A DNA stretch of 64,000 nucleotides from Lacibacter sp. H407. GTDB taxonomy: Bacteria > Bacteroidota > Bacteroidia > Chitinophagales > Chitinophagaceae. The position numbers and the translations under genes are program-made. Below the pieces are notes generated by a model. The model was not told the origin of the DNA, made no database searches, and saw only the letters and a list, made by a program, of their open reading frames with translations. This document shows, piece after piece, positions 21,007 to 39,795 of the stretch (positions within the stretch are counted from its first letter, which is position 1; each line of letters begins with the position of its first letter). The stretch spans positions 744,001 to 808,000 of the forward strand of contig NZ_JBBKTU010000001.1 in NCBI RefSeq assembly GCF_037892605.1, given 5' to 3'.

Positions 21007-21729
21007 TTAGCGACTTTGCGGCGATCCATTCCGCAATCGCTCAAACAACGCTACGTTCATCATGATCAATAACATGCCGTAAAAAATATCTTCAAACGGA
21101 ATATTGTTCATCGGCCAGGGGAGAAATGAAAAAATACGAAAGCCGAGATTCTCTACATCGTTATACAACACAACCGGAATGCCTGTTAAAAAACCATTCA
21201 CCACTAAGAAGGGAATCACAATTACCAGATACGAAACAAGAAACGAAGACGCATCAAATCCCTTGAACCACTTTTTAAAAATAAACAAGGCTGCAATAAA
21301 CAATGCATTGAAGAGTGAAGTGTAAAACGTATACGCTTTCCCGTATGTAAAAACAGCAGCGATCAAAAACACAATACCCATCAACAACAATACCTTGTTC
21401 CCCCACTTCCTGTTTCTCACCGATGGAAAATAACTGATGATACATTCGTACACAAACACACAGCAATATGGAACAACAAAAAAGAACAACACTTCTTCAA
21501 GCGGTAGTGCTGATAGTTTCAACCCCGTAATATGTGTTTCACTGAAACTCCATACGCCTGCCTTTGTTTTTACATCATCCCAGATCAGAAAAAAGAGAGC
21601 AGGTAACAGCAACGCAGGAAACAAATACTTCCACTTTTTATAGTACGCTACTTTTTTATCAAAGCTCAACAGCAAGGGGCCGGCAAGAGAAGCCGCCAGA
21701 ATAAAAAAGTAAGTGTAATGTGAATTCAA
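21007..21729 (-). CDS. crtY: Lycopene cyclase, fused CrtYc-CrtYd type
   Basis: This 240-residue membrane protein has about six to seven transmembrane helices and two copies of the cyclase signature: LPLEE (residues 75-79) and IPFED (210-214). That identifies a fused CrtYc-CrtYd, which cyclises lycopene ends to beta-ionone rings. It ends the carotenoid operon, starting 5 bases after the crtZ stop. The start is TTG (21729-21727): family members begin with NxHYTYF and no ATG is available upstream or nearby. Whether it cyclises one or both ends cannot be read from sequence. Confidence 0.92.
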   Translation of the reverse strand: MNSHYTYFFILAASLAGPLLLSFDKKVAYYKKWKYLFPALLLPALFFLIWDDVKTKAGVWSFSETHITGLKLSALPLEEVLFFFVVPYCCVFVYECIISYFPSVRNRKWGNKVLLLMGIVFLIAAVFTYGKAYTFYTSLFNALFIAALFIFKKWFKGFDASSFLVSYLVIVIPFLVVNGFLTGIPVVLYNDVENLGFRIFSFLPWPMNNIPFEDIFYGMLLIMMNVALFERLRNGSPQSR

Positions 21730-21734
21730 TTGTA

Positions 21735-22217
21735 TTATCTGATGTTGGGATTGAGTTGCTTTTCTTTCCGCACTTTTTCCCAGTATTTTTTATGCACGAA
21801 GAGCATTCCGAAACTTTCACCATGTTCTTTATCCATGTGCTTGTGGTGCATTTTATGCGCCCAGCGGATAGCACGTACATAGGTACTGTTCCACCTGCTG
21901 AAAATTTTAAACCGTTGGTGAATAATAATATCGTGAACAATAAAGTAAGCCAACCCGTACATGGCGATACCGGCACCAATACTTACCACCCAATAAACCT
22001 GGTTCATTAAACCAAGCATAATACACAGCCAACTGGGAATAGCGAAAATTAGAAAAAACGCATCATTCTTTTCCAAAAAATGACCCTTGGGTTGGTGATG
22101 ATCTTCGTGGAGATACCACAAAAAACCATGCATCACAAATTTATGCGTGAGCCAGGTAATGCCTTCCATCGTGAAGAACACAACAAATGCCAGTAAGATG
22201 TAAACGATTAAACTCAT
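21735..22217 (-). CDS. crtZ: Beta-carotene hydroxylase (CrtZ family)
   Basis: The 160-residue di-iron membrane hydroxylase has the histidine boxes His25/His30 (THKFVMH), His37/His40/His41 (LHEDHH), His95/His100 (HDIIIH) and His121/His124/His125 (HKMHH). CrtZ hydroxylates C3 of beta-ionone rings to give zeaxanthin-type ends. It overlaps the cruF-like gene by 4 bp (ATGA), implying coupled translation. Length is typical. Confidence 0.94.
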   Translation of the reverse strand: MSLIVYILLAFVVFFTMEGITWLTHKFVMHGFLWYLHEDHHQPKGHFLEKNDAFFLIFAIPSWLCIMLGLMNQVYWVVSIGAGIAMYGLAYFIVHDIIIHQRFKIFSRWNSTYVRAIRWAHKMHHKHMDKEHGESFGMLFVHKKYWEKVRKEKQLNPNIR

Positions 22218-22903
22218 AATACGGTGCGTAAGATTAAAAAAAACATAAACTGGATCAATAACAAATTTACAGCAAATTGGTTTTGTTTCGGGAACGATAA
22301 AAGCCGGAACAGCAACATTAACAGGGCACTGACTCCAAACCAGCTGAGATAGTTAAGCAAAGGGATCGATCCATCGCCCAGCCACTGCCAATAGCCAAGC
22401 TTTACAGCAATGGGCTCCATTACCCAATCGAAAAAAGTAGCCAGTAAAGCACCATCAATGATGATCGCAAAAAAGCCAACGTTATTTCGCTGCGGCTGAT
22501 CTTCATCCTTCAGTTTATTCCACATAAAGTTGAGGAAGTGTTGAATGGTTACTCCGCAACAATACATCATAATAAACCAGTTAACACCAATCACCAGCGG
22601 AACATTACCAACCTGCAAACCCATGGCAGGTAAATACCGGTATTCTCCAAATAACAATTGATAATTCACTCCGATATATTCTACTCCGAAACCAACGATG
22701 TAACAAATCAACACAAACAGAAAAAAATGTTTGTTCCGTTCGCTTTGTGTATAGATCAATAATCCGGCAGAAAGTAACAGGTTCATGGGTGTAAGCGAAG
22801 CAAACAACGCAGCATCATACAACAAAATACCAGCTAAGCCAATGCAGTGAAATAACACGGCAATAGCAGTTGCGATCTGTTGTTTACTGAACTGTTGTAA
22901 CAT
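22214..22903 (-). CDS. cruF: CruF-like carotenoid 1,2-hydratase family protein
   Basis: This 229-residue protein has about seven membrane helices and matches the carotenoid biosynthesis (DUF422) family that includes CruF and bisanhydrobacterioruberin hydratase. Conserved features seen are EYIGVNYQLLFGEYRY, with acidic and polar residues in a helix, and GALLATFFDWVMEPIA. These enzymes add water across the 1',2' double bond of an acyclic carotenoid end. It lies between the crtD-like gene (2-base gap) and crtZ (4-bp overlap), the pairing expected for a 1'-hydroxy, 3',4'-didehydro carotenoid end. The family is well supported; exact substrate is inferred. Confidence 0.85.
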   Translation of the reverse strand: MLQQFSKQQIATAIAVLFHCIGLAGILLYDAALFASLTPMNLLLSAGLLIYTQSERNKHFFLFVLICYIVGFGVEYIGVNYQLLFGEYRYLPAMGLQVGNVPLVIGVNWFIMMYCCGVTIQHFLNFMWNKLKDEDQPQRNNVGFFAIIIDGALLATFFDWVMEPIAVKLGYWQWLGDGSIPLLNYLSWFGVSALLMLLFRLLSFPKQNQFAVNLLLIQFMFFLILRTVL

Positions 22904-22905
22904 GA

Positions 22906-24399
22906 TTAATGAACCGGGTGTTTTAAAAAATCTTCTTTGATCAAGTCCGTTGCAATTTGAGCACTTTTAAAACAAAGCGGAATACCACCACCCGGATGAA
23001 CACTGCCGCCACAGAAATACAATCCCTGAATTTTCTTTGTAAAGTTTGGATGGCGAAGAAAAGCTGCCATTTTCCCATTGCTGCTGGTACCGTATAATGA
23101 GCCCATGAAAGAACCGGTACGTTCTTCAATACGAATGGGATCGAGATATTCTTCCACAGCAATGGCTTCTTCAATATTCGTTTGTAAGATCCTGCTTAGT
23201 TTATCAATTACCTGTTGCCGCAATTGCACACGCATCGCTTCCCAGTTTTGACCCACATTCGATGGTGCGTTAATGAGCACAAACCAATTTTCCATTCCTT
23301 TTGGTGCCAACCCGTTTTCCATTTTTGAAGTGATGTTTACATACACCGTGGGATCATTGTACAAACGTTGTTGTTTAAACAGCGCTGTAAACTCAGACGC
23401 ATAATTTTTACTGAAGAAAATATTATGCAGATGCAGATTTGAAAACTCCCGGTTCATACCCCAGTAAAAAATAACTCCGCTGCAACTGCGTTCCTGCTTC
23501 AATACTTTTTTGGTTTGATAATGATCGTCGAGTAATTGCTGATACGTGAAATACACATCAGCATTACTCACCACTACATCAGCTGCAATATTTTCATCAG
23601 CTGCCACTACCCCTTTCACTTCGCCTTGGTGATGGATGATGCTTTGTACAGCTGTGTTGTAATGAATACGAACGCCTTTTTTCTCTGCCAGTTTCACCAA
23701 GGCATTCGTGATGCTGATCATTCCACCTTTCGGATAAAACGTTCCTTCATTCAATTCCAAATGAGGAATTAAACTCATCATACCCGGTGTTTGATAAGGA
23801 TTACTTCCGTTGTACGTTGCAAAACGATCAAATAACTGAACAGCTTCGTTTGTTTTAAACGCAGCTTGATTAAATCCATGCAAGGTGCCTGTAAGATGTG
23901 AAGGCCGAACAGTTTGCAAGGCTTTGAGTATTGACTTTTGTAACCACGTAGAACGTTTGTGCAACGAATGATTCAAAAAAATACGACCGATATTGTTATA
24001 AAGCGTTTCGCTTTTGTGGAGATAATTTTTAACGGCTTCTTTGTCTTCGCCCAATTGCTCATGCAATTCATCAGCTAACTGTTCTGCATTTGTCCACGCA
24101 CTTACCTGCTTCCCGTTTTCATAAAAGTATTTGCATGAAAGTGGCACTTGTTGATATTGGAAATAATCTTCGATCGGTTCACCTGCAAAAGCGAATAACT
24201 CTTCTACATTCTGCGGTTGCGTGAATAACGATGGGCCTGCATCAAAAAGAAATCCATCTTTCTCAAAAAAGGAAAGTTTGCCGCCGGCATATGCATTGCG
24301 TTCAAACACATCTACTTCAAAACCCTGTACAGTTAACCGTATAGCAGCCGCTAAACCTGCTACACCACTACCGATCACTACTGCTTTAGGCTGCCGCAT
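22906..24399 (-). CDS. crtD: CrtD-like carotenoid 3',4'-desaturase
   Basis: The 497-residue FAD-dependent desaturase has the dinucleotide site GSGVAGLAA (residues 10-18) and the C-terminal FAD-contact motif GGSVHPGGGIPL. It is a paralogue of the crtI gene but clearly diverged. Its adjacency to cruF-like suggests CrtD activity (3',4'-desaturation of a 1'-hydroxy end) rather than a second phytoene desaturase. ATG at 24399 is chosen since MRQPKAVVIGSG is the expected start; its frame overlaps the idi stop by 14 bases. Assignment as CrtD rather than CrtI is inference from context. Confidence 0.8.
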   Translation of the reverse strand: MRQPKAVVIGSGVAGLAAAIRLTVQGFEVDVFERNAYAGGKLSFFEKDGFLFDAGPSLFTQPQNVEELFAFAGEPIEDYFQYQQVPLSCKYFYENGKQVSAWTNAEQLADELHEQLGEDKEAVKNYLHKSETLYNNIGRIFLNHSLHKRSTWLQKSILKALQTVRPSHLTGTLHGFNQAAFKTNEAVQLFDRFATYNGSNPYQTPGMMSLIPHLELNEGTFYPKGGMISITNALVKLAEKKGVRIHYNTAVQSIIHHQGEVKGVVAADENIAADVVVSNADVYFTYQQLLDDHYQTKKVLKQERSCSGVIFYWGMNREFSNLHLHNIFFSKNYASEFTALFKQQRLYNDPTVYVNITSKMENGLAPKGMENWFVLINAPSNVGQNWEAMRVQLRQQVIDKLSRILQTNIEEAIAVEEYLDPIRIEERTGSFMGSLYGTSSNGKMAAFLRHPNFTKKIQGLYFCGGSVHPGGGIPLCFKSAQIATDLIKEDFLKHPVH

Positions 24400-24925
24400 G
24401 TGATGATTTATTTTGTTGCATCCATTCTTCCAGTAACGGAAAAGCGATCTTGAACCATTCAGTATAATCACCGGCGTTGTGCTCCAGTTCAACTTTTATA
24501 TCGGTCATGCTTTTATAGCAAACTTCACTTACTTCCTCTTCATTCAATTGCATGTCACCTTCATACTCACCTACAAACACATGATCGAATTCATGCTCCG
24601 TTAATCCATTATCAAATGCTGCTTTGTACGTAAAATGAAATGCTTTGCTGATGGCAACTGTAAATCCCAACTCTTCCTGCAACCGGCGGAGAGCTGCCTG
24701 CTCTGTTGTTTCGCCGGGCATTGGATGACTGCAACAGGCATTGGTCCACAATGATGGACTGTGATATTTTGTTGCCGCCCTTTTTTGCAACAGCATGTTT
24801 CCTTTTTTATCGTACAGGAATACACTGAAAGCACGGTGCAGCAAAGCTTTTTCGTGTGCTTCCATTTTTTCCATGGAACCAATAGCTTCATCGATCTCAT
24901 TCACGAGAATTACTTCATGCATCAT
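24386..24925 (-). CDS. idi: Isopentenyl-diphosphate delta-isomerase, type 1
   Basis: The 179-residue Nudix-fold enzyme interconverts IPP and DMAPP, supplying precursors for carotenoids. The catalytic cysteine is Cys65 in NACCSHP, and metal/active-site glutamates lie in ALRRLQEELG (residues 78-87). Histidine His30 precedes the conserved AFSVFL. Start could be 24925 or 24922. It is 22 bases after crtB and overlaps the crtD-like gene, so it is embedded in the carotenoid operon. Confidence 0.93.
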   Translation of the reverse strand: MMHEVILVNEIDEAIGSMEKMEAHEKALLHRAFSVFLYDKKGNMLLQKRAATKYHSPSLWTNACCSHPMPGETTEQAALRRLQEELGFTVAISKAFHFTYKAAFDNGLTEHEFDHVFVGEYEGDMQLNEEEVSEVCYKSMTDIKVELEHNAGDYTEWFKIAFPLLEEWMQQNKSSHAAA

Positions 24926-24947
24926 TCAAAAATAAGTGATTACAGGA

Positions 24948-25784
24948 TTACATGATATTTAACTGGCTGCGTACGCCTGCTCTTACAAGGATCATCACTT
25001 TGTGATAATCGGGAATACGCACCCGCTCCTGCATAATAACGGCGGGTTGCAGTTTTTTGATCTTTCGAAACAGCGAGAGATAATATTTATACGCTACGTA
25101 TACACCAAAGCGTGCCTTGCCGGGCAACTGCATGATGCCTTCGTAGGCGTGATCAAAATCTTTTTGAATATCGGCTTCAATTTCACGTTTCTGACGCTCG
25201 GTGAAATTGGAAAAATCAAGTCCGGGGAAATAAGTGCGGTCCAATTGGTTGTAATCGGCCTGCACATCACGTAAAAAGTTTACTTTCTGGAACGCTGCAC
25301 CTAACGAACGGGCGGCCGGTTTGAGTCGCTCAAATTCAGCTTTATTTCCTTCGAGGAAAACATACAAACACATCAATCCCACCACTTCGGCACTGCCGTA
25401 AATATAATCGTTGTAACCCTGCTCTGTATAATTGGTGCGTTGCAAGTCCATCTCCATGCTATTAAAAAACGCATGGATCAACTCGTGATCAATTTCAAAT
25501 TGATTCACCGTTATCTGAAAGCTATGAAGAATGGGGTTAAGGCTGATGCCACGGTCAATTGCATCAAAAGTTTGTTTTCTGAAATCAGCAATAAGAGCGG
25601 CTTTGTCATGCTCATGAAATGTATCAACGATCTCATCAGCAAAACGAACCAATCCATAAATATTGTAAATAGGCTGACGCAGATCCTGGTGCAACAACCG
25701 AATGGCTGATGAAAAGGAAGTACTATACCGCTCGGTTGTATTGCGGCTGCACAATTCACATACTTCATGAAAAACCTTCATCAT
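24948..25784 (-). CDS. crtB: Phytoene synthase
   Basis: The 278-residue squalene/phytoene synthase condenses two geranylgeranyl diphosphates to phytoene. Both Mg-binding DxxxD motifs are present: DEIVD (residues 50-54) and DVQAD (173-177). YSTSFSSAIRLL and the FQKVNFLRD segment are typical. Start ATG at 25784 overlaps the crtI stop by 4 bp (ATGA). The two adjacent ATGs differ by one codon. Confidence 0.95.
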   Translation of the reverse strand: MMKVFHEVCELCSRNTTERYSTSFSSAIRLLHQDLRQPIYNIYGLVRFADEIVDTFHEHDKAALIADFRKQTFDAIDRGISLNPILHSFQITVNQFEIDHELIHAFFNSMEMDLQRTNYTEQGYNDYIYGSAEVVGLMCLYVFLEGNKAEFERLKPAARSLGAAFQKVNFLRDVQADYNQLDRTYFPGLDFSNFTERQKREIEADIQKDFDHAYEGIMQLPGKARFGVYVAYKYYLSLFRKIKKLQPAVIMQERVRIPDYHKVMILVRAGVRSQLNIM

Positions 25785-27280
25785 AAATGCACCTTTGTTT
25801 GAACAGATTTTGAGAAATGCTTACTCACCAGATTTGCCACCACTTCACCACTGATCAAACTTGGCGGAACCCCGGGTCCCGGCACCGTTAACTGCCCTGT
25901 GTAGTACAAATTAGTGACTTTTTTGCTCCTGCACGATGGTTTTAAAACAGCCGTTTGAAGAAGCGTATTCGCTAACCCGTAAGCATTCCCTTTAAACGCA
26001 TTGTAATCCGTTACGAAATCACTTACTGAATAAGATTTTTTATAAACAATCGATTGCTGAATTTGTTCACCAATACGCTGCTCAAATCGATTTAAAATTT
26101 GACAGAAGTATTGATCACGAAGTTCCTCGGTATCGCCGCTAAGACCGGCAGCAACAGGAATCAGGAAAAATAAATTCTCATGTCCTTCAGGAGCCCCACC
26201 CGGATCAGTAGCGGTGGTGGCACTTACATAAAACAAGGGATCGGTAGGCCATTTCGGATCGCTGTAAATTTCTTTTCCATGCCGTTCAAAATCGGCATCG
26301 AAGAACAATGTGTGGTGTGGACTGTTCTTCAACCGCTTGTTCAAGCCTACATAATAAAGTAAACAGGAGGGAGCCATTACACGGTTACTCCAGTAGGCAT
26401 CTGAATAAGCCTGATCGTGATGGTGTAGCAGTTTTGTTTCGGTGAAATGATAATCAGCGCCGCTGATGATCACATCGGCTTCATACAAAACATCATCCAC
26501 CATTATTCCGGTTGCAATACCATCGTTTGTTTTGATGGATTGTACATCTTTGTTGAATTCAAATTTCACACCCAGCTCAACAGCCAGACTATGCATAGCT
26601 TCCACAATTTTATACATACCGCCAACAGGATACCAGGTGCCCAGTTTAACATCAGCATAGTTCATCAAACTGTAAAGCGCAGGAATTTTTTCAGGTAATG
26701 CACCGAGAAATAACACAGGGAACTCCATCAGTTCACGTAAGCGTGGATCGGTAAAATGTTTATGTACATGTGTTTTCATGGAAGCAAACACATCCAGGCG
26801 AAGAATGCCCTTGAGCAGATCCATTTCTGCAAATTCAGTGAGTGATTGTCCGGGTTTGAAAACAAGTTTGTTGATGCCTACTTCATATTTGTAAGCTGCT
26901 TCATCCATAAAATGGTCAAGCTTTGCAGCACTGCCGGGTTCGATCCGTTCAAACAAGTTACGCAACGCATCGTAATCGGCAGGAATATCAACCACATCGT
27001 TATTATAATATATGCGGTACGAAGGATCCAACCGCTTGAGTTGATAATAATCACTTACCTTTTTCCCGAATTGACGGAAGTATCGTTCAAACACATCCGG
27101 CATCCAGTACCAGCTCGGGCCCATATCAAATGTAAAACCGTCGGCTTTCAATTGACGGGCACGGCCACCGGGTTGTTCATGCTTTTCAAATACAGTCACT
27201 TTCCACCCGCTACGGGCAAGAAATGAGGCAGCCGACATACCGGCAAAGCCGCTACCAATAACGATTGCTTGTTGGGCCAA
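25781..27280 (-). CDS. crtI: Phytoene desaturase
   Basis: The 499-residue FAD enzyme desaturates phytoene toward lycopene. It shows the N-terminal FAD site IGSGFAGMSAA (residues 8-18), GGRARQLKADGF and the C-terminal GQLTVPGPGVPPSLISG. It is directly upstream of crtB, the standard pairing. The start is a TTG codon at 27280-27278, 12 bases after the sigma factor stop; no ATG exists upstream in frame, and the sequence downstream is already inside the FAD fold. Confidence 0.94.
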   Translation of the reverse strand: MAQQAIVIGSGFAGMSAASFLARSGWKVTVFEKHEQPGGRARQLKADGFTFDMGPSWYWMPDVFERYFRQFGKKVSDYYQLKRLDPSYRIYYNNDVVDIPADYDALRNLFERIEPGSAAKLDHFMDEAAYKYEVGINKLVFKPGQSLTEFAEMDLLKGILRLDVFASMKTHVHKHFTDPRLRELMEFPVLFLGALPEKIPALYSLMNYADVKLGTWYPVGGMYKIVEAMHSLAVELGVKFEFNKDVQSIKTNDGIATGIMVDDVLYEADVIISGADYHFTETKLLHHHDQAYSDAYWSNRVMAPSCLLYYVGLNKRLKNSPHHTLFFDADFERHGKEIYSDPKWPTDPLFYVSATTATDPGGAPEGHENLFFLIPVAAGLSGDTEELRDQYFCQILNRFEQRIGEQIQQSIVYKKSYSVSDFVTDYNAFKGNAYGLANTLLQTAVLKPSCRSKKVTNLYYTGQLTVPGPGVPPSLISGEVVANLVSKHFSKSVQTKVHL

Positions 27281-27292
27281 AGTAGAAATTGT

Positions 27293-27793
27293 TTAATACC
27301 TGCTGATTTGTTCCTTCAGCAATTTACGGGCAAAATGGATACGGCTCTTGATTGTTCCAAGTGGCTCTTGTAAAACATGGGCTATTTCATGATACTTGAA
27401 ACCTTCAAAATACAACATGAAAGGCTGTTTGAAAATATCGGGGAGTTGATGGATGGCTTTTTGGATCTCTTTCATCTTCATACTCGTTTCAGCTTCATTG
27501 GCTACGGTTGCCTGCTGAAAATCCAGAAAGAAATCATTGGGTGTAGAATCAAAAATGGTATTCTGTTTCACCTTGCGGCGATAGTTATTAATAAAAATAT
27601 TACGCATAATGGTGTACAGCCAGGCTTTGATGTTGGTGCCCACATTATACTTTTCACGGTTCGACAATGCCCGAAACATGGTTTCCTGTAACAGGTCCTT
27701 TGCCGTTTCATTATCCCTCGTCAACGTAAAGGCAAAGGGCTTCAGAAAATCGGTATTGTTCAAAAGCATTTGATTAAATTCTACAGTTGACAT
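27293..27793 (-). CDS. ECF-type RNA polymerase sigma factor
   Basis: The 166-residue protein has sigma region 2 (LKPFAFTLTRDNETAKDLLQ then RALSNREKY and IKAWLYTIMRNIFINNYRR) and region 4 (LPDIFKQPFMLYFEGFKYHEIAHVL then GTIKSRIHFARKLL). That is the minimal region 2 plus 4 layout of ECF factors. It is the first gene of the carotenoid operon, 12 bases before crtI, so it probably drives its own transcription and that of the pigment genes. No adjacent anti-sigma gene is present in the window. Confidence 0.93.
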   Translation of the reverse strand: MSTVEFNQMLLNNTDFLKPFAFTLTRDNETAKDLLQETMFRALSNREKYNVGTNIKAWLYTIMRNIFINNYRRKVKQNTIFDSTPNDFFLDFQQATVANEAETSMKMKEIQKAIHQLPDIFKQPFMLYFEGFKYHEIAHVLQEPLGTIKSRIHFARKLLKEQISRY

Positions 27794-27799
27794 AAAATC

Positions 27800-27887
27800 G
27801 TGTTTAATAATTTATAGTGTAAAGTTAAACAAATCAATGTTAGCACACCAAATTTTTGTTTAATTATTTTTTAAAAAGATTAAACAC
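27800..27887 (-). promoter_or_regulatory. Candidate operator of the carotenoid operon: duplicated GTTTAA/TTAAAC inverted pairs
   Basis: Upstream of the sigma gene, GTTTAA (27802-27807) and TTAAAC (27825-27830) form one inverted pair with 17 bases between. A second pair, GTTTAA (27858-27863) and TTAAAC (27880-27885), has 16 bases between. The outermost arms extend to a perfect 9-bp match, GTGTTTAAT (27800-27808) and ATTAAACAC (27879-27887). The area is AT-rich, so chance matches are possible, but the repeated geometry suits a dimeric or tetrameric regulator such as the MerR protein encoded upstream. Confidence 0.4.
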
Positions 27888-27909
27888 TTTGCAGCCAACC
27901 AGTTATAAT

Positions 27910-27935
27910 GAAAAATCCCCCGGAGTACGGGGGAT
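27910..27935 (-). terminator. Rho-independent terminator after MerR gene
   Basis: ATCCCCCG (27915-27922) and CGGGGGAT (27928-27935) form an 8-bp stem with a 5-base loop. On the minus strand a TTTTTC tract follows. It separates the regulator gene (stop at 27961) from the sigma-crt operon. Confidence 0.85.
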
Positions 27936-27960
27936 ATACGTATAAAAACAGTTGGAAAGA

Positions 27961-28845
27961 TTATGACAATGTGCCTAAAAGTTCATTTACTTCGGCAAGT
28001 GATTTCAGAAAACGGATGTTTGAAGGAACTACTTTTTTCTCGAATGTTTGTGCCAGCAATCCTGAAATAAGGATCTGTTGCTGTGGGAAACGCATCTTCA
28101 GATTGTTGAGGAATTTGTCAAAATTAAACTCCTTCATTACCGTGGTAAGATGCGTATAGATATAATCAGGCTTCTTCAGTCCCACTACATATTCCAGATC
28201 TTTCACCGGCACGTTCGATCCAAGATAGATCACTTCTACACCTCTGCTTTTTAATAAAAACTGGAGGAAAAGCAATCCAACTTCATGATGTTCATTTTCC
28301 GGCAAGAAAAGCAGCATTTTAGTTTTGAGTGAAAGCGGCGTAACAACACTATCGATACCCACGATCAATTTTTGACGGATGATATTCGTCATCAAATGTT
28401 CCTGTGCCGGGTTGATATGATCCGTCATCCACAAAATACCTATCCGCTCCATGAAAGGAAAAATGATATAAGTGATCGTCTTTTCAATACCACGGGCAGC
28501 AATATGCTGATCAATTACTTTCTCAAAACCATCCAACTCCATGTCAACCATGTGCTGGATCAATTCATTGATAATACGCTCCTGCTGTGCCTGCGGACCG
28601 GTTAGTGTCAATGTTTTCTCCCGCAACTCTTCATTGCTCATACGATTGATATGAGAAATTTTATACCCGTACTTATTCAGCAAGGATATATTCAGCAACA
28701 TTTTTAATTCCTGGTTGCTGTAGTAGCGGATATTCGTAGCTGTACGTTGCGGCTTAAGAAATGAATAGCGCTGCTCCCATATCCGTATGGTGTGCGCTTT
28801 TATTCCGCTGAGATTTTCAAGGTCTTTAATTGTAAACTTGTTCAT
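27961..28845 (-). CDS. MerR-family regulator with cobalamin-binding domain (CarH/LitR-like)
   Basis: This 294-residue protein has a MerR DNA-binding head (residues 3-70; NKFTIKDLENLSGIKAHTIRIWEQRY), then a helical B12-binding region and a Rossmann-like cobalamin domain. Both hallmarks of light-sensing CarH are intact: the Wx9EH motif with Trp139 and Glu149-His150, and ExHxxG with Glu185, His187 and Gly190. Such proteins bind adenosylcobalamin in the dark, repress carotenoid genes and release DNA on illumination. It lies directly upstream of the carotenoid operon on the same strand. ATG at 28845 gives the family start; a longer open frame to 29046 is rejected. Confidence 0.9.
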   Translation of the reverse strand: MNKFTIKDLENLSGIKAHTIRIWEQRYSFLKPQRTATNIRYYSNQELKMLLNISLLNKYGYKISHINRMSNEELREKTLTLTGPQAQQERIINELIQHMVDMELDGFEKVIDQHIAARGIEKTITYIIFPFMERIGILWMTDHINPAQEHLMTNIIRQKLIVGIDSVVTPLSLKTKMLLFLPENEHHEVGLLFLQFLLKSRGVEVIYLGSNVPVKDLEYVVGLKKPDYIYTHLTTVMKEFNFDKFLNNLKMRFPQQQILISGLLAQTFEKKVVPSNIRFLKSLAEVNELLGTLS

Positions 28846-28921: not shown

Positions 28922-30124
28922 TCAGGAACCAGGCAAAAAGGACTTGTACAAAGCTGCAAGTTCAGCCGTTTCAACCTGCTTGGATAAACGGGCTTGGGCT
29001 TCTGCCGCCGCCGCTGTTGAAAGCTGTTGCTGCAAACCAACATCATTGATGAGCCTTGTTAACTGGGCAACCAATCCTTGTTGATCAGCGGCCAGCAAAC
29101 CCGTTCGCCCATCTTCGATCAACTCCGGAATGCCACCCACGTTTGTACTTACGATGGGTTTACCCGCCGCCATAGCTTCCATAAGCGAAACAGGTGTTCC
29201 TTCATTGAGTGAGGTAAGCATCACAATATCCAAACCGGCAAATACACGGTCCATATCGGTGCGCCAGGATGTAAATACAAACGGAATATTCTCCGACGAT
29301 GCATCAGCTGTAATGGAGTATGCTAACTGTTTGGCCGAAAGTATTTCCTGCAGCATTTTTTTCTCCGTACCATCGCCCACAATAAAAAAACGCAGCTTTT
29401 TTGTTGCAGCATGTGTATGTAAGATTTCTTCGGCCACTTCAATAAAAAGACGATGTTGTTTCACCGGAACCAACCTCCCTGCAATACCAATTGCAACAAC
29501 ATCTTCCTGCAATCCAAACTCATCCCGAAACTGTTTGCGCTTGTGCCGATCACCATCTCGGTAAAGATTTGTTTCGATGCCCAGTCGGATCAGTCTTATT
29601 TTTTTTTCGGCAGCGATCCGGTATTGATAAATCAATTCCTGTTGCAGAGTTTGATTGATAGCGATCAATACTGTTGAATAAGTTGCCAGCCAACGTTCGA
29701 TCCGTACAATTAAATCTGATATAAAAGAGGAGAAATAAGAATGAAATACATGTCCGTGAAATGTATGAATTACCACGGGCACTTTACTTCGATGTGCCGC
29801 CAATCGTCCCAATACGCCCGGCTTGGCACCGTGTGTATGAACAATATGTGGTTGAAAGGAGCGAATTATCTTTTTTAATTCATTGTATGCCCGCCAATCG
29901 TTTCCCGGAATAACCGAACGTTTCATAGAGGCTATTTTCTGCACACGGAATCCTTTGTATTGTTCGAGTAAATAATCCGCTTCCTGTTCATCTGCATTGG
30001 GTGCACCGGCAACCAACAAAATATCAAACTGATCAGCTAACAACGATGCAGCACTGATGGTATTGGAAGCAGGGCCTCCTACAGAAAGACGATTGAGAAC
30101 TATGAGTAAGCGGGGCTTGTGCAA
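28922..30124 (-). CDS. Glycosyltransferase family 4 protein
   Basis: The 400-residue GT-B enzyme has an N-terminal VLNRLSVGGPASN motif, HTHGAKPGVLGRLAA, and the nucleotide-sugar domain with IAGRLVPVKQHRLFIEVA and the EX7E segment NEGTPVSLMEAMAAGKPIV. Its start is TTG at 30124-30122, 6 bases after the CpsB-like gene; no ATG occurs near. It and the phosphatase upstream form a short unit that also precedes merR, suggesting a polysaccharide function; the acceptor cannot be predicted. Confidence 0.88.
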   Translation of the reverse strand: MHKPRLLIVLNRLSVGGPASNTISAASLLADQFDILLVAGAPNADEQEADYLLEQYKGFRVQKIASMKRSVIPGNDWRAYNELKKIIRSFQPHIVHTHGAKPGVLGRLAAHRSKVPVVIHTFHGHVFHSYFSSFISDLIVRIERWLATYSTVLIAINQTLQQELIYQYRIAAEKKIRLIRLGIETNLYRDGDRHKRKQFRDEFGLQEDVVAIGIAGRLVPVKQHRLFIEVAEEILHTHAATKKLRFFIVGDGTEKKMLQEILSAKQLAYSITADASSENIPFVFTSWRTDMDRVFAGLDIVMLTSLNEGTPVSLMEAMAAGKPIVSTNVGGIPELIEDGRTGLLAADQQGLVAQLTRLINDVGLQQQLSTAAAAEAQARLSKQVETAELAALYKSFLPGS

Positions 30125-30130
30125 GTAAAC

Positions 30131-30883
30131 TTAAAGCGTAGAGTTGAGAATGAGATTTGTTTGCAACGCATGTTGTACATCTTTTACTAATTGTGGATGT
30201 TGTAATGCATCGAGATGACGCTGGTGATGAAGATCGGTACCGATCAGATCAACCAACTTATGTTCTACGAGATAATGTGCTGCATCCTGTACGCCCTTTC
30301 CATAATACCCACTGAGCGAAAGAAGATTTATCTGCAACAAACATCCCTGGTCTTTGAAGCGATGATAGGCTTCTTTACGGCTATGATAAAAATTATATCG
30401 CTCCGGATGTGCAAGTACAGGTTGATATCCTTTCACGATCAGTTCAAACAATATGTGCTTCAGATCAGTTGGTGCCTGCATAAACGATATCTCTACCAAT
30501 ACATAATTTTTATGAAAGGTTAAAAGGGGTTCATCATTTTTCAATCGGTCGGCAAACAGATCATCAATAAAATATTCAGCCGCCGCATGCACTTCCACAT
30601 CAATACCTTCTTCTTTCAATTTTTCTGTTAAGCGTTGATGTGCTGCCAGGATGGTTTCTCTTGTGTTGGGATAAAGGTCTGGATAAATATGGGGTGTGGT
30701 GATGAACTTACGATAGCCCAGCTCCATCATTTTTTTGATATAACTTACCGATGTAGCTGCATCAGGCGATCCATCATCAATACCCGGCAACAAATGCGAA
30801 TGCATATCCACCCCCAAACCACTGTAATCAATTCCAGCAGCAGATGGTGTTTCTTCTTTCTTCTTTTTAAATAATCCAAACAT
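30131..30883 (-). CDS. CpsB/YwqE-like tyrosine-protein phosphatase (PHP domain)
   Basis: The 250-residue PHP-family metalloenzyme shows DMHSHLLPGIDDG (residues 26-38, with metal ligands His28, His30), TTPHIYPDLYPN, the VLAHPERY histidine, and IGTDLHH near the end. CpsB/YwqE enzymes dephosphorylate the tyrosine kinase that controls capsule and EPS assembly. The first 15 residues are a basic tail (KKKKEE). Its place at the edge of the glycan locus fits regulation of export, but no BY-kinase gene (wzc) is in the window. Confidence 0.9.
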   Translation of the reverse strand: MFGLFKKKKEETPSAAGIDYSGLGVDMHSHLLPGIDDGSPDAATSVSYIKKMMELGYRKFITTPHIYPDLYPNTRETILAAHQRLTEKLKEEGIDVEVHAAAEYFIDDLFADRLKNDEPLLTFHKNYVLVEISFMQAPTDLKHILFELIVKGYQPVLAHPERYNFYHSRKEAYHRFKDQGCLLQINLLSLSGYYGKGVQDAAHYLVEHKLVDLIGTDLHHQRHLDALQHPQLVKDVQHALQTNLILNSTL

Positions 30884-31113
30884 AACTTCTGGATAGTAAA
30901 TTAATAGTCTACTGAAAATAAAAAGTAAAATGCGGCTGCTATAACAGAATACATTTAATCAAACTGATGAACAGAGGATGTTGAATGATCTTCCAAAGTA
31001 ATTCACCACAGTAGCAACACAACCAAATCAAGGCGCTTGCCGGAACATGGGGGTAATATGTTCCGGCTTGACTTTTTGGTTCTTTTGTGTCAAGACAAAA
31101 GAACAAGAATAAC
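30884..31113. repeat. Intergenic region with two perfect hairpins
   Basis: This 230-base gap contains no gene. GCCGGAACAT (31039-31048) and ATGTTCCGGC (31058-31067) make a 10-bp stem with a 9-base loop; GTTCTTTTGT (31079-31088) and ACAAAAGAAC (31095-31104) make another with a 6-base loop. They follow the fcl stop on the minus strand. The second motif (a GTTCTTTTGT/ACAAAAGAAC hairpin beside CAAAAAGTCAAG) is known to me as a recurring intergenic element of this phylum. Neither is followed by a T tract on the minus strand. Confidence 0.55.
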
Positions 31114-32043
31114 TTAAAACCCCAACGACTTTACTTCCTGATACACTTTTTCAACTCCTTCTCTCAACCCGATCTTCGCCTGCCACCCACGACTGTGCAG
31201 CTTCGAAACATCCAGCAACTTACGTGGGGTACCATCGGGCTTTTCGGTGTTAAACGTTAACTCGCCTTCGTATCCCACAATAGCCCGGATCATTTCCGCC
31301 AGTTCTTTGATTGATATATCTTCACCTACACCAATATTCACAAGTCCGCCTTCATCGTAACCCTGCATTAAAAAATAACAGGCATCTGCGAGGTCATCTA
31401 CATGCAGAAACTCACGGCGTGGCATACCCGAACCCCAGATTTCGACCGATGGTTGTTGTGTACGTTTGGCAACGATCATCTTTCGTAACAAAGCAGGCAG
31501 CACATGAGAGTTCTGCAGATCATAATTATCATTCGGACCATACAGATTGGTCGGCATAGCAGAAATAAAATTGCTGCCGTACTGACTGCGATACGCATCA
31601 CACAATTTCAACCCTGCAATTTTTGCAATAGCGTACGGCTCATTGGTATGTTCCAGCAAACCTGTAAGCAGGTATTCTTCTTTGATAGGTTGCTCTGCAA
31701 ACTTTGGATAAATACAGGATGAACCGAGGAACAATAACTTCGTTACACTATGCTTATGTGCCGAATGAATGACATTATTCTGGATCATCAGGTTATCATA
31801 CAAAAACTCTGCACGAAAGGTATTGTTGGCAACAATACCACCCACCTTTGCTGCTGCCAGAAACACATGATCGGGTTTATATTCTTTAAAGAACCGATCG
31901 GTTGCTTCCTGGTTCCGCAGATCCAGTTCGGCTGATGTGCGAAGTACAAGATTATCATATCCCTCTTGCTGCAATTTGCGTACTATCGCAGAACCCACCA
32001 TTCCTCTGTGACCCGCTACATAAATTTTATCGTTCTTCTCCAT
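31114..32043 (-). CDS. fcl: GDP-L-fucose synthase
   Basis: The 309-residue SDR enzyme epimerises and reduces GDP-4-keto-6-deoxymannose to GDP-L-fucose. It has the NADP site [10 protein letters not shown] (residues 10-19), the active-site serine/cysteine SSCIYP (108-113) and the YxxxK pair Tyr137/Lys141 (YAIAK). The [11 protein letters not shown] and RREFLHVDD segments are typical. It overlaps gmd by one base, making a conventional gmd-fcl GDP-fucose operon. Confidence 0.95.
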
Positions 32044-33155
32044 TATTCAAATTGATTTTTGATCTTAAAGCCACTTTCATGCAACAGTTTTTCTTTCTTG
32101 AAAATATCAAGATCGGCTGCTACCATTTCTTTTACTAATCCGTTAAGATCATATTTTGGTTTCCAACCAAGTTTGGTATTTGCTTTTGTTGGGTCGCCGA
32201 TCAATAATTCCACTTCTGTTGGACGGAAATAACGTGGATCAACCGCCACGACTTCTGTACCAATGGCCAATTGATAATCGGCATTCGAACATGACTTCAC
32301 AATGCCGATTTCATTCTGTAACTCACCTTTAAATTCAATTTCAACGCCCACTTCTGCAAAAGCCATCCGCACAAATTCACGAACCTCTGTTGTAACGCCC
32401 GTAGCAATCACAAAATCTTCCGGTTTCTCCTGCTGCAACATCAACCACATCGCTTCTACATAATCTTTTGCATGGCCCCAGTCACGTTGTGCATTCAGGT
32501 TACCCAACCACAATTTATCCTGCATGCCTAATGCAATTTTTGCAACGGCACGGGTGATCTTTCTGGTAACAAATGTTTCACCACGCAAAGGTGACTCATG
32601 ATTAAATAAAATCCCGTTACATGCAAACATATTATACGCTTCACGATAATTGACCGTGATCCAGAACCCATACATCTTTGCAACAGCATATGGCGAACGT
32701 GGGTAGAATGGTGTCCGTTCACTTTGCGGAACTTCCTGTACCAATCCATACAATTCAGAAGTAGATGCCTGGTAAATTCTTGTCTTTTCGGTTAAGCCCA
32801 GTAAACGCACCGCTTCCAAAATACGCAATGTACCTACAGCGTCTGTATTGGCTGTGTATTCAGGAATATCGAAACTTACTTTCACATGACTCATAGCACC
32901 GAGATTGTAAATTTCATCGGGCTGCACTTCCTGGATAATGCGAATGAGATTGGAGCTGTCAGTGAGATCACCATAGTGCAACACAAAATGACGGTTGTCA
33001 ATATGCGGATCTTCATACAAATGATCGATACGATCGGTATTGAACAAACTAGAACGGCGTTTGATGCCATGCACTTCATATCCTTTCTTCAACAGAAGAT
33101 CAGATAAATAAGCGCCGTCCTGTCCGGTAACCCCTGTAATTAATGCTTTTTTCAT
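32043..33155 (-). CDS. gmd: GDP-mannose 4,6-dehydratase
   Basis: The 370-residue SDR enzyme makes GDP-4-keto-6-deoxy-D-mannose, the first step to GDP-L-fucose. Features are [10 protein letters not shown] (residues 7-16), ASTSELYG (130-137) and catalytic Tyr156/Lys160 in [22 protein letters not shown] is the family GDP-binding stretch. It starts about 100 bases after the GT2 gene's stop, in a gap of low-complexity repeats. Confidence 0.96.
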
Positions 33156-33254
33156 TGATTGCTTTTCGTAATTTATAATAGTTGTTATCGTTATTTATTT
33201 TTTAACTTTTCAACTAACTCCTTCTTCCAAATTCCCAACTCCTAATCCCCCATG

Positions 33255-34022
33255 CTATCCATTCGCTCTCTTCTTCCGCAAAAACTCACTCACCTTCACA
33301 AAATACCTCGAATACAAACGAATATAACTTGATGGCATTTGATGCTCTTTCAATATTTGTTTCAGTTCTTTATTGATCTTGATCGTACTGCTGATTCCAT
33401 TGGTACTCTTGCCGCCCATATTCATCCGCACCAACATCTGGGGAATATAAACCGTAAATAATTTGTGCTTCCGTAAAAAACGTAAGAGCAGATCAAAGTC
33501 GGCTGCAATTTCCAGATCAGTCCGGTAGTATCCAAATTGTTCAAAAAAACGGCGATAACAAAAGAACGTTGGATGCGCCGGCATAAAACCAAACTTGAAT
33601 AAATTAGTTTTGAAAATAGCGGATGAATAATAACGGATGATCTTATGTGAATGATCCGCATGTACAAAACCAACATCACCATACACCGCATCCACCACCG
33701 GGTTCTCTTGAAATTTTTCAACAATGATTTGGATCACCTGCTCATTGGTAAATTCATCATCTGCATGAAGGATACCAACGATATCACCTGTCGCCAATTG
33801 AATCCCTTTGTTCAACGCATCATACATACCGCTGTCTTTTTCCGATACAATGGTTGCAATGCGGTCGCTGTACTGCTGCACCACTTCCATGGTCGCATCG
33901 GTGGATGCACCATCGATGATGATGTATTCGATCTGCTGATACGATTGATTGAGTACAGACCTTATAGCCCGTTCAATGGTAGCAGCCCGATTGTACACAA
34001 CAGTAATAATGGAAACTTTCAT
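33255..34022 (-). CDS. Glycosyltransferase family 2 protein
   Basis: The 255-residue GT-A enzyme begins KVSIITVVYNRAATIERAI and has a DGASTDATMEVV acidic pair, the DSGMYDALNKGI motif and the metal-binding DXD-like HADDE (about residues 93-97). A later EIAADFDLLLRF segment is typical of WcaA-type enzymes. ATG at 34022 is chosen because it gives the family start MKVSIITVVYN. It starts 4 bases after the carbamoyltransferase stop. Confidence 0.9.
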   Translation of the reverse strand: MKVSIITVVYNRAATIERAIRSVLNQSYQQIEYIIIDGASTDATMEVVQQYSDRIATIVSEKDSGMYDALNKGIQLATGDIVGILHADDEFTNEQVIQIIVEKFQENPVVDAVYGDVGFVHADHSHKIIRYYSSAIFKTNLFKFGFMPAHPTFFCYRRFFEQFGYYRTDLEIAADFDLLLRFLRKHKLFTVYIPQMLVRMNMGGKSTNGISSTIKINKELKQILKEHQMPSSYIRLYSRYFVKVSEFLRKKRANG

Positions 34023-34026
34023 CAGA

Positions 34027-35754
34027 TTATCGCTCCACAATAATATTTTCCATCACTAACATGTCCATCTGTGTACGCAGGAAACAATCCAATGCTTCTG
34101 CCGGTGAATTCACAATCGGTTCATTTTCATTGAACGATGTATTTAGTAAAATTGGCACACCTGTTTTTTCACGAAACGCATCGATCAATGCATAGTATCG
34201 TGGTGAAACAGATTTGTCAACTGATTGCAAACGACCTGTTCCATCCACATGCGTAACAGCAGGTATCAATGATTTTTTTTCTTCTTTGATCGGGAATACT
34301 TTCTCCATAAACGGCACTACATCGCTCACCGTAAAATATTCTTCTACATATTCTTTAAGGATGGAAGGTGCAAAAGGACGAAAACTTTCTCTTCGTTTAA
34401 TTTTTGCATTCAACAGATCTTTTGCATCGTTGCGTCGTGGATCTGCAAGTATAGATCGTCCACCCAATGCTCTCGGACCAAACTCACTTCTGCCACTGAA
34501 CCATCCAACTACACCTGCATTCACCAAACGATTCGCCACATATTCATACAGTTCAGTATCAGACAATTTTTTATAACTGATATTTCTTGATTGCAGATAC
34601 GTTTCAATTTCATCATTGCTGAAATGGCTCCCGGTATAAGCACTCCAGATAGCAGGTTGACGTGGTTGCTTCAATGTTTGATTGTGAACATACAACGCAG
34701 CACCCATCGAAATACCTGCATCATGTCCCGCACTGGGGATATAAACATTTGTAAACGGAGTGTTGCGTGTGATCTTTCCATTGGCAACAGAATTCTGCGC
34801 AACACCACCCGCAATACAAACATTCTTTAACCCTGTTCGTTTTTGCAAAGCCGTTAAAATATGAAAGATCAATTCTTCTGTAAACCGTTGTACCGATGCC
34901 GCCATATCTTTATGAAACTGCGTCAACTCTTCACTCTTCTGTCTCGCCTTGCCCAACTTCGTTTCAAAATAATCAGTAAACAACGTGGCTACAACCGGAA
35001 TATGATCATCACCATACGTGATAATTCCTTTTGTGGGGTTTCTGAAGTATGGAAGATTCAATTTGAATAATCCATCAGGAGTAAATTGTATAAGATCTCT
35101 TAGCTGATCTACATACTTTGCTTCACCATATGGTGCAAGCCCCATCACTTTGTACTCATCACCATAATGAGGAAAGCCCAACCACTGCGTCATGGCTGTA
35201 TAAAAAATACCAACCGAATGAGGAAAGTCAACCGAATCGATCACTTCGATGTGATTGCCACGACCAATACCGATCATAGTGGTGGTGAAATCACCGGAAC
35301 CATCAATCGATAACAACGCCGCTTCTTCAAAGGGTGACGCAAAAAATGCAGAAGCTAAATGACTGCGGTGATGTTCTACGTTATGAATTTTCTTTTTCAG
35401 TTCAGCTTTATCAATAGCTTCGATCTGTACAAACTCATCTTCAAGGGTTGATACTTTTTTTGCATTGCTGAGTCGGTTCTTTACAGCAGCTACACTGCCG
35501 CCCGGGTTCTGTAACAGAAACAATAATTTCTTTCCCAACTTGGCCCAGGGATCACGGCCAATGGCAATATGATCCACTTCTTTCAAACTCACACCAGCTT
35601 CTTTCAAGCAAAATGCAACCGACATACTCGGGAAACCTGCCCAATGTTTTACACGACGAAAGCGTTCTTCTTCAATCGCAGCGATCATCACCCCATCCAC
35701 AAAAATGGCAGCGCTGCTATCGGCATGGTAAGCATTAATTCCTAAAACGATCAT
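34027..35754 (-). CDS. Carbamoyltransferase (NodU/CmcH family)
   Basis: The 575-residue enzyme transfers the carbamoyl group from carbamoyl phosphate (via a carbamoyl adenylate) onto a sugar hydroxyl. N-terminal ASKHA-like fold marks are GINAYHADSSAA, EEERFRRVKHWAGFP and VEHHRSHLASAFFASPF; the C-terminal YrdC-like part includes GGRSILADPR and NTSFNENEPIV. It probably adds a carbamate to the repeat unit or a precursor. It lies between two glycosyltransferases and has a TAnnTTTG element upstream. Confidence 0.92.
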   Translation of the reverse strand: MIVLGINAYHADSSAAIFVDGVMIAAIEEERFRRVKHWAGFPSMSVAFCLKEAGVSLKEVDHIAIGRDPWAKLGKKLLFLLQNPGGSVAAVKNRLSNAKKVSTLEDEFVQIEAIDKAELKKKIHNVEHHRSHLASAFFASPFEEAALLSIDGSGDFTTTMIGIGRGNHIEVIDSVDFPHSVGIFYTAMTQWLGFPHYGDEYKVMGLAPYGEAKYVDQLRDLIQFTPDGLFKLNLPYFRNPTKGIITYGDDHIPVVATLFTDYFETKLGKARQKSEELTQFHKDMAASVQRFTEELIFHILTALQKRTGLKNVCIAGGVAQNSVANGKITRNTPFTNVYIPSAGHDAGISMGAALYVHNQTLKQPRQPAIWSAYTGSHFSNDEIETYLQSRNISYKKLSDTELYEYVANRLVNAGVVGWFSGRSEFGPRALGGRSILADPRRNDAKDLLNAKIKRRESFRPFAPSILKEYVEEYFTVSDVVPFMEKVFPIKEEKKSLIPAVTHVDGTGRLQSVDKSVSPRYYALIDAFREKTGVPILLNTSFNENEPIVNSPAEALDCFLRTQMDMLVMENIIVER

Positions 35755-35776
35755 TATAGTATTGTATTAAGGGCCG

Positions 35777-35784
35777 CAAAGATA
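35777..35784 (-). promoter_or_regulatory. TATCTTTG -7 element before carbamoyltransferase
   Basis: On the minus strand TATCTTTG (35784-35777) matches TAnnTTTG exactly and lies 22 bases upstream of the ATG at 35754. A clear -33 TTTG is not visible, so confidence is moderate. It would give an internal transcription start within the glycan locus. Confidence 0.4.
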
Positions 35785-35799
35785 ACCGTTCAGGTTCCT

Positions 35800-36954: not shown

Positions 36955-37185
36955 AATAACAGTCTCTTCAGCCTTAAACTTAACCTTACTCTCAACCTAT
37001 CAACTTATTAACCTATCAACTTTTCAACTTACTACTTCTTCCCTAATTCCCAATTCCACCCCTTGCCCACTCGCTTTCCCCATGAACCATGATCTATGAA
37101 CCATAACGACTGCCCTTCCCTTTCAACTTACTAACTTCTTAACCTCTCAACTCCTTTTAACCTTAAACCCTTAACCCTTAACTTC
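36955..37185. repeat. Low-complexity intergenic repeat block
   Basis: This 231-base gap has no gene. It contains AACCTATCAACTT twice (36994-37006 and 37010-37022, period 16), ATGAACCAT twice (37082-37090 and 37096-37104), and a CCTTAAA/CCTTAAC 7-base run three times near 37161-37181. Several TCAACTT copies occur throughout. The minus strand is purine-rich. Two shorter blocks of similar composition lie at 33190-33245 and 39720-39795. Confidence 0.6.
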
Positions 37186-39719: not shown

Positions 39720-39795
39720 ACCTGTCGTACTTCCTGCATAATAAATCCTAATTTAACTCATCGGCCACCCTAATCAACTTTAAACCCCTTATTTA

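Follow-up and report, generated by a model that had tools for sequence, protein, structure and literature searches.

The window, that is the whole stretch of DNA analysed here (64,000 nucleotides of Lacibacter sp. H407, contig NZ_JBBKTU010000001.1, positions 744,001 to 808,000), carries on its minus strand the gene of a CarH-like regulator and, 167 bp downstream, the gene of an ECF sigma factor that opens an apparent carotenoid (crt) operon. Along that strand, the following features are found (coordinates of the window):

27961 to 28845, minus strand: CarH-like regulator, 294 aa, with MerR helix-turn-helix, B12-binding four-helix and Rossmann domains
27915 to 27935, minus strand: terminator-like hairpin between the regulator and ECF genes, 8 pairs (6 G-C) followed by a T-rich stretch
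27857 to 27886: distal inverted repeat TGTTTAA-N16-TTAAACA, proposed operator 1
27848 to 27852, minus strand: TTTGG, proposed -33 element of a Bacteroidota sigma-A promoter, from sequence and promoter logo, weakly conserved
27820 to 27827, minus strand: TAACTTTA, proposed -7 element (TAnnTTTG type), 21 nt past TTTG and overlapping the proximal repeat
27801 to 27831: proximal inverted repeat TGTTTAA-N17-TTAAACA, proposed operator 2, 7 nt ahead of the ECF start codon
27293 to 27793, minus strand: ECF sigma factor gene, 166 aa, heading the apparent crt operon
25781 to 27280, minus strand: crtI-type phytoene desaturase, above the NF058655 cut-off
24948 to 25784, minus strand: crtB-like phytoene/squalene synthase, under equivalog cut-offs
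24386 to 24925, minus strand: idi, isopentenyl-diphosphate delta-isomerase, passing its NCBIfam cut-off
22906 to 24492, minus strand: crtD-type desaturase, passing its NCBIfam cut-off, start codon uncertain
22214 to 22903, minus strand: CruF-like carotenoid hydratase, under the NCBIfam cut-off
21735 to 22217, minus strand: probable crtZ-type hydroxylase, without NCBIfam match
21007 to 21729, minus strand: lycopene cyclase of CarR-domain type, the CarR-type domain passing its NCBIfam cut-off

Sigma regions 2 and 4 are both present in the ECF protein (Pfam), and the genes that follow are tightly packed, from crtI, whose ORF has a TTG start 12 bp downstream of the ECF gene, through the crtB-like gene, idi, crtD, the CruF-like gene and the ORF which we take, from its sequence, to be crtZ, down to the CarR-type cyclase. 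The initial annotation had described the regulator and ECF genes as neighbours, with the ECF gene first in a crt operon and no anti-sigma gene adjacent, and this description holds, the last point because the two genes are flanked by crtI and by an ORF that looks, by eye, like a glycosyltransferase.

Regarding the regulator, its N-terminal DNA-binding domain is recognized by PF13411 (MerR_1, 52.9 bits for a cut-off of 21.6); PF02607 (B12-binding_2) scores 36.4 bits for a cut-off of 23, and PF02310 (B12-binding) remains under threshold (26 vs 32.1 bits). Thermus thermophilus CarH entries are its best matches in a sequence search of solved proteins (E about 1e-20) and CarH is also the top Foldseek match of an AlphaFold2 model (mean pLDDT 89.4), across both the four-helix and Rossmann domains, with a TM by target reaching about 0.75 over the B12 domain. 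A check of the sequence placed the sensor residues exactly where they had been annotated, with the Wx9EH motif formed by Trp139 and Glu149-His150 and the second motif by Glu185-x-His187-xx-Gly190. W139, E149, H150, E185 and H187 are invariant across a 34-row family alignment (members 42-81% identical to the window regulator, itself one row); they are likewise invariant in a second, 39-row set save for E149 (90% or more), and the five-residue set is complete in 84 of the 89 homologues gathered, being broken in loci L077, L092, L108, L113 and L154. From the longer signature ExHxxGx41SxV/Tx22-27GG, the protein keeps ExHxxG, while the classic SxV/T...GG portion reads TxV (T234-V236, two residues late) and SG (S261-G262). 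In T. thermophilus CarH, the His that follows the Trp serves as upper ligand once the protein is illuminated (PMC8156234); this residue is Met in the window regulator and His in only 3 of the 89 homologues. The closest regulators found belong to two Chitinophagaceae assemblies (75-76% identity), then to Lacibacter luteus (73%), in a search that may omit the genome itself. An adenosyltransferase (PF01923) is encoded in the same genome, as in 142 of the 147 genomes of the family, together with four further proteins containing a B12-binding domain. The best reading of this protein is a predicted Bacteroidota form of the adenosylcobalamin (AdoCbl)-dependent, class I, LitR/CarH photosensors, and at those residues that are open to testing it appears to work like them. 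We speak of a Bacteroidota variant instead of CarH because the score for the CarH equivalog is missed (NF052513, 104 bits of the 400 required) and because the tandem operator of CarH is missing, as described below.

Between the two genes, the hairpin suggests that they may be transcribed separately, so that the crt operon would not begin with the regulator gene. In a congener locus (L007) the same stem is found with a changed loop (by eye). Taken alone this hairpin is weak evidence, since such structures are about as frequent as in shuffled sequence (2 in the 1.8 kb scanned vs 1.8 expected); a simple operon uniting regulator and ECF gene was rejected on account of the hairpin and of the promoter-like elements in between. 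The exact inverted repeat occurs twice in the window, where 0.01 occurrence is expected, and as the pattern was picked only after being seen, it was tested in other genomes. The -33 and -7 labels assume the Bacteroidota promoter consensus, TTTG/TAnnTTTG. Among 73 aligned promoters with a spacer of 17, the left box extends as TGTTTAA-n-TT-T-A/G, with T at +8 and +9 in 73/73 and A or G at +11 in 73/73, and with a weaker TTTGG some 21 nt further upstream; the conservation of the extended left box is not demanded by symmetry with the right box and would be explained by a -7 element of the TAnnTTTG type. We thus propose that the proximal repeat spans the -7 element and the probable start site and that the distal repeat abuts the -33 element upstream, an overlap with the promoter which points to repression. 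A second, upstream repeat (at most 1 mismatch) accompanies the proximal one in 84 of 135 promoters and the two are 54-58 bp apart, centre to centre, in 82 of these 84. Among the loci outside the family, those of f8 have distances of 44 or 63-64 bp and f7 has 52 bp. The spacing is suggestive of both sites lying on one helix face.

The CarH recognition element has been described as nAnnTnnACAn, in 3-4 tandem copies (PMC8156234). It is matched by 131/135 left and 94/135 right half-sites of the proximal repeat; among the four half-sites of the window, two are perfect and two have 4 of the 5 bases, and an additional perfect element lies within the proximal pair. As a positive control, scanning the carH region of T. 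thermophilus HB8 returned exactly three elements in 11-bp steps. The same scan found no tandem 11-bp array in the window, for which a tandem operator was hence rejected, and found inverted pairs instead, with 23-24 bp separating the half-site centres. Inverted-pair operators built of the CarH element would be new relative to the known CarH operators.

A search for the regulator beside ECF-crt genes, proposed in the initial annotation, showed the arrangement to be recurrent: among the best 80 of 586 GTDB matches to the regulator profile (named loci, viewed up to 5 kb either side), an ECF orthologue lies near the regulator in 69, on the same strand in 67 and with crtI in 64, a neighbourhood beyond chance. 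Strains carrying the module include Sediminibacterium salmoneum NBRC 103935 (L173) and Hydrotalea sandarakina DSM 23241 (L191), as well as Niastella sp. OAS944 (L223), in which crtI does not adjoin it. In the family itself, 103 of 147 genomes contain an ECF orthologue (E 1e-30 or better) and 93 a regulator homologue (E 0.001, paralogues counted). In a tree of the regulators, the window protein belongs to a clade of 75 sequences (support 0.935), distinct from a paralogue clade (support 0.977) and from a few others. Sorted accordingly, the 103 ECF genomes comprise 68 with the orthologous regulator adjacent on the same strand, 7 with it elsewhere, 7 with another homologue only and 21 with none. 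When exact boxes with a spacer of 14-19, within the 220 bp that precede the ECF start, were required, the repeat was found in 56/68, 5/7, 3/7 and 1/21 of these groups, respectively; with at most 2 mismatches, which is a weak criterion, the counts are 66/68, 7/7, 4/7 and 4/21. Exact repeats are thus associated with the orthologue both against the genomes without any homologue (61/75 vs 1/21, Fisher p 1.1e-10) and against these plus the homologue-only genomes (61/75 vs 4/28, p 5e-10), and the association persists where the regulator is located elsewhere (5/7 vs 1/21, p 0.0012), namely about 1.7 kb off and divergent in genome G039 and on a different contig or megabases apart in the other six. The named set, which partly overlaps the family set, gives 55/69. 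Throughout the 80 named loci (764 kb), only two exact sites fall outside the 220 bp preceding an ECF gene, one upstream of the regulator (L176) and one on a contig that stops before any ECF gene could appear (L246), and the control pattern has 0 occurrences. Genome-wide, the 75 genomes with orthologue and ECF gene hold 108 repeats, of which 77 precede the ECF gene, for 8 reversed controls (spacer 16-17), and the remaining 72 genomes hold 27 repeats vs 19 controls (spacer 16-17).

The joint retention and loss of repeats and regulator is strong though not perfect. The exact repeat is absent from 14 of the 75 regulator-positive genomes, 73 of which have it with at most 2 mismatches; in one of them with an adjacent regulator (G036), the sensor residues are lost, there is no repeat and crtI is not beside the ECF gene. 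Conversely, an exact repeat was seen where no regulator orthologue was found in G112 (69% complete) and in G023 and G122, where 325 and 82 nt, respectively, separate the ECF gene from the end of its contig. A true exception is G106, a 99% complete genome with an exact repeat and only a regulator homologue of the paralogue clade, which breaks the pairing unless its paralogue binds the repeat. On a tree of the ECF proteins from the 103 genomes, 4 of the 18 orthologue-negative clades have an exact repeat (G106, G023, G122, G112), and 1 of 15 (G106) when G023, G122 and G112 are set aside as truncated or incomplete assemblies; these counts of independent losses are approximate, the tree being built on a short protein. 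That the repeats merely track crtI was rejected by the genomes without crtI beside the ECF gene, where the exact repeat is found in 6/12 regulator-positive and 1/18 regulator-free cases (11/12 and 3/18 with at most 2 mismatches). Three regulator-free genomes do have crtI beside the ECF gene (G015, G059, G142), with 0 exact repeats and a single 2-mismatch one. In regulator-free genomes, inspection by eye of the sequence ahead of the ECF gene revealed no conspicuous ECF-type promoter element. The regulator very likely controls the ECF promoter, since the repeats largely track its presence, also in genomes where its gene is not adjacent, and have mostly disappeared along with it.

Outside the family, 78 of 395 genomes of the phylum match the regulator profile (E 1e-30), and the loci of 30 were examined, 11 within the family and 19 outside (L281-L299). 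An ECF homologue (37-51% identity) is present in 12 of these 19 and is preceded in all 12 by a repeat with no more than 1 mismatch (families f7, f8, f9); crtI lies in the stretch in 11 of the 12. Among the 7 loci whose stretch contains no ECF gene, a repeat is found in L286 only and none in L290, L291 and L295-L298.

The regulator homologues of G106 and G078 both fall outside the orthologous clade. Homologues outside this clade adjoin, by eye, lepB-like, cytidine-deaminase-like and response-regulator genes; photolyase genes were confirmed beside a paralogue in L160, and in L167 and L168 a paralogue directly precedes crtI with no ECF gene (by eye). Among the matches listed, extra repeats occur just upstream of the regulator in G008, G025, G043, G047, G063, G070 and G141, which suggests autoregulation in these genomes; upstream of the window's own regulator gene, neither inspection by eye nor the search found a repeat.

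The ECF gene also persists without crtI at its side. crtI is not beside it in 18/21 regulator-free and 12/75 regulator-positive genomes, so that its job is probably not pigment alone and the ECF factor probably has targets beyond crt. In regulator-positive loci without adjacent crtI, an idi-like gene often comes next (by eye: L051, L052, L062, L091, L113, L221, L223, L231), as it does in L115, the locus of G106 (by eye), and in L132 nothing follows the ECF gene on that strand. A search of 12 such genomes, picked by a regulator identity cut of 41% before the tree-based sorting, found no crtI match at E 1e-60 genome-wide in 7 (G069, G124, G030, G074, G076, G055, G102).

From these data, we consider it likely that the regulator acts as an AdoCbl-bound repressor of the whole ECF-crt unit in the dark and is released by light, through two inverted-pair operators. 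In the dark, the AdoCbl-loaded protein would bind both operators at the ECF-crt promoter, operator 1 upstream of -33 and operator 2 over -7 and into the leader, and RNA polymerase would be blocked. Light would break the Co-C bond and the regulator would leave the DNA, upon which the housekeeping polymerase could transcribe the ECF gene, crtI, crtB, idi and the remaining genes together. The ECF factor, made only after this release and having no adjacent anti-sigma, might then amplify the response or regulate additional genes in trans. LitR/CarH proteins have been described as negative regulators (PMC6739363). As the crt genes come straight after the ECF gene and appear to share its operon, they would be released directly by the regulator. 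The initial annotation had suggested a cascade from cobalamin and light to the sigma gene and from there to pigment; of this, a control of the sigma gene by the regulator is supported indirectly, by the co-occurrence of repeats and regulator, while for the step to pigment, nothing found shows the ECF factor driving the crt genes, which lie immediately behind it. More tentatively, and without leaning on it, we suggest that a class I B12 photosensor reads the CarH half-site as two inverted pairs (mostly 54-58 bp apart; 44 or 63-64 bp in f8) placed around a Bacteroidota TTTG/TAnnTTTG promoter, which a tetramer would clamp, and that the core target is the ECF gene and not the carotenoids, because the switch survives before the ECF gene alone or ECF-idi in lineages without crtI.

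A strict cascade, in which the regulator would control the ECF gene only and the ECF factor would turn on crt from a separate promoter, has a precedent in Streptomyces, where LitR controls litS, an ECF gene, and LitS transcribes crtE (PMC12705666). It would also suit G136, whose ECF gene stands alone behind the repeat (the next ORF is on the opposite strand) and whose crtI, located elsewhere, has no exact repeat upstream, only a 2-mismatch one. We nevertheless judge it unlikely, given that crtI lies 12 bp past the ECF gene in the window and within 700 bp behind it, on the same strand, in 57 of the 68 regulator-adjacent genomes, and that in G078, where crtI stands apart, it has its own exact repeat about 40 bp upstream (with the regulator homologue of another clade). 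Quite unlikely is a sensor of B12 level, in which AdoCbl would bring about repression and light would play no meaningful part in this lineage. The protein does lack the His that switches ligand in T. thermophilus CarH and the adenosyltransferase is near-universal in the family, but Wx9EH, which caps the photolabile Ado group, is kept, carotenoids are photoprotective, and light-induced carotenoids are reported in a Bacteroidota species, Chryseobacterium lacus (PMC7064467, which reports no car or lit genes, identifies no regulator and states the mechanism to be unknown). Very unlikely, in our view, is a classical MerR-type activator that would remodel the promoter upon a change of ligand state; the protein is of the MerR type, with a site inside a promoter of 21-nt spacer, and Streptomyces LitR is described as promoting litS transcription in light (PMC12705666), but the proximal repeat spans the proposed -7 and the likely start site, and the characterized CarH relatives are repressors. 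Finally, a CarA-like B12-independent repressor, relieved by another protein such as a CarS-like anti-repressor or a LOV partner (as for class II LitR; PMC9758184), is most improbable with Wx9EH, reported missing in CarA (PMC8156234), kept here and all five residues in 84/89 homologues, even if two homologues with altered E149/H150 (G045 and G084; loci L092 and L108) keep exact repeats, which makes B12-independent binding possible and argues that B12 is not always required for binding.

This module is a concrete candidate for the light control of pigments in Bacteroidota; among the matches listed in the open-access literature, none describes a Bacteroidota CarH-ECF circuit. The predicted operator bears on the plasticity of DNA recognition by CarH, and the module predicts an ECF regulon answering to light and vitamin B12, even in the absence of crtI. 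Should the inverted-pair clamp with the ECF gene as core target prove true, it would be a missing light regulator of pigmented Bacteroidota, in control of an ECF regulon.

Among known systems, T. thermophilus CarH shares with the window regulator its domain order, Wx9EH, ExHxxG, fold, the nAnnTnnACAn element and an operator at the promoter. It differs by its upper-ligand His, missing in the window regulator, and by its operator since, in T. thermophilus as in Bacillus megaterium, the two best-known CarH operators consist of 3-4 tandem 11-bp direct repeats, unlike the two inverted pairs found here. Moreover, the gene after T. thermophilus carH is ldrP, and the annotation of the 5.6 kb of pTT27 examined shows no ECF gene. 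In Myxococcus xanthus, an ECF factor (CarQ) and MerR regulators with a B12 domain (CarA/CarH) likewise serve carotenoid control, but as separate systems, whereas their counterparts are neighbours here. CarQ has an anti-sigma factor, CarR, and no adjacent anti-sigma gene of the CarQ type is present in the window. The class II LitR proteins of Pseudomonas (PplR1, PmlR2) recognize paired-box operators, over the -35 region and after the start (PMC9758184), a two-site, two-box layout shared with the window repeats. They differ by their box, TGTACA-N12-TGTACA instead of TGTTTAA/TTAAACA, and by their reportedly incomplete B12 domain and LOV protein partner (PMC9758184).

The pairing of CarH-type and ECF regulators, to which the initial annotation had drawn attention by contrast with Myxococcus, is not new, as Streptomyces LitR controls litS (PMC12705666). 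Both circuits link the gene of an AdoCbl-type MerR photosensor to ECF and carotenoid genes, and the ECF gene adjoins the regulator gene in the window as in the LitR-LitS pair, LitR and LitS being likened here by description. The Streptomyces circuit belongs to another phylum and to another promoter type, and LitS acts at a separate crtE promoter, while here the crt genes lie within the apparent ECF operon. The operator of Streptomyces LitR, as far as is known, also differs from these inverted pairs. What would set the Bacteroidota module apart from the Streptomyces circuit is hence its inverted-pair operators made of CarH elements, its Bacteroidota promoter, its presumably shared operon and a switch that survives without crt.

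Regarding the wider distribution of the CarH-like MerR regulator across the Chitinophagaceae genomes compared, its module with the ECF sigma gene and idi also occurs without an adjoining crtI (L051, L052, L062, L091, L221, L231 and L223, the last from Niastella sp. OAS944), and all of these loci except L231 contain an exact copy of the proposed regulator operator, the inverted pair TGTTTAA-N16/17-TTAAACA. In two of the genomes from which these loci come (G071 and G029), crtI was found at a separate location. At L167 (G071) and L168 (G049), a homologue lies directly 5' of crtI with repeats present and the ECF gene absent. CarH-like homologues were located in other gene settings as well (L149-L157, L160, L166-L168), including one adjoining photolyases (L160), and by eye some adjoin lepB-, cytidine-deaminase- or response-regulator-like genes. 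In G062, an orthologous regulator separated from its ECF gene adjoins genes that look, by eye, ketosynthase-, dehydratase- and reductase-like (L339:3422-7756), perhaps an aryl-polyene or flexirubin-type cluster and hence another pigment.

Exceptions to the pairing of regulator and repeat, and to the Wx9EH motif of B12 and light sensing, were also encountered. G106 (L115, L166), a genome 99% complete, has an exact repeat upstream of its ECF gene and the only regulator found there belongs to the paralogue clade; either this paralogue would be able to recognise that site, or the repeat would be a relic. In G045 (L092) and G084 (L108), the regulator has an altered Wx9EH and yet exact repeats are kept upstream of the ECF gene, so that these proteins are possibly natural B12-independent variants.

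In the genome of Lacibacter sp. H407, the sole further exact repeat lies outside the window, between an rpoD-like housekeeping sigma gene and a START_2-domain gene, and a repeat with a different spacer occupies the corresponding position in the congener G083 and also in G034, from another genus.

Repeats near the rpoD-like gene
L159:4009-4039 (genome of Lacibacter sp. H407, outside the window)
L251:1501-1530
G034:C13:132289-132319

An exact repeat was present at 2 of the 30 rpoD loci scanned (G000 and G034), plus that of G083. Separately, one relative (G058) carries an exact repeat immediately upstream of a cob(I)alamin adenosyltransferase gene (L255:1501-1531), an arrangement that would tie adenosylcobalamin supply to the same switch.

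Finally, two gene sets flank the regulator and ECF gene in the window.

Flanking genes in the window
28922-40950, upstream of the regulator gene and in its orientation: extended series of genes resembling those for glycosyltransferases, sugar epimerases/dehydratases and carbamoyltransferases (by eye)
21007-27280: crt set of CrtI, CrtB-like, Idi, CrtD, CruF-like, CrtZ-like and CarR-type cyclase

The former resembles, on inspection by eye, a polysaccharide cluster. The crt set appears suited to making a hydroxylated carotenoid with a single ring, of the saproxanthin or myxol type.
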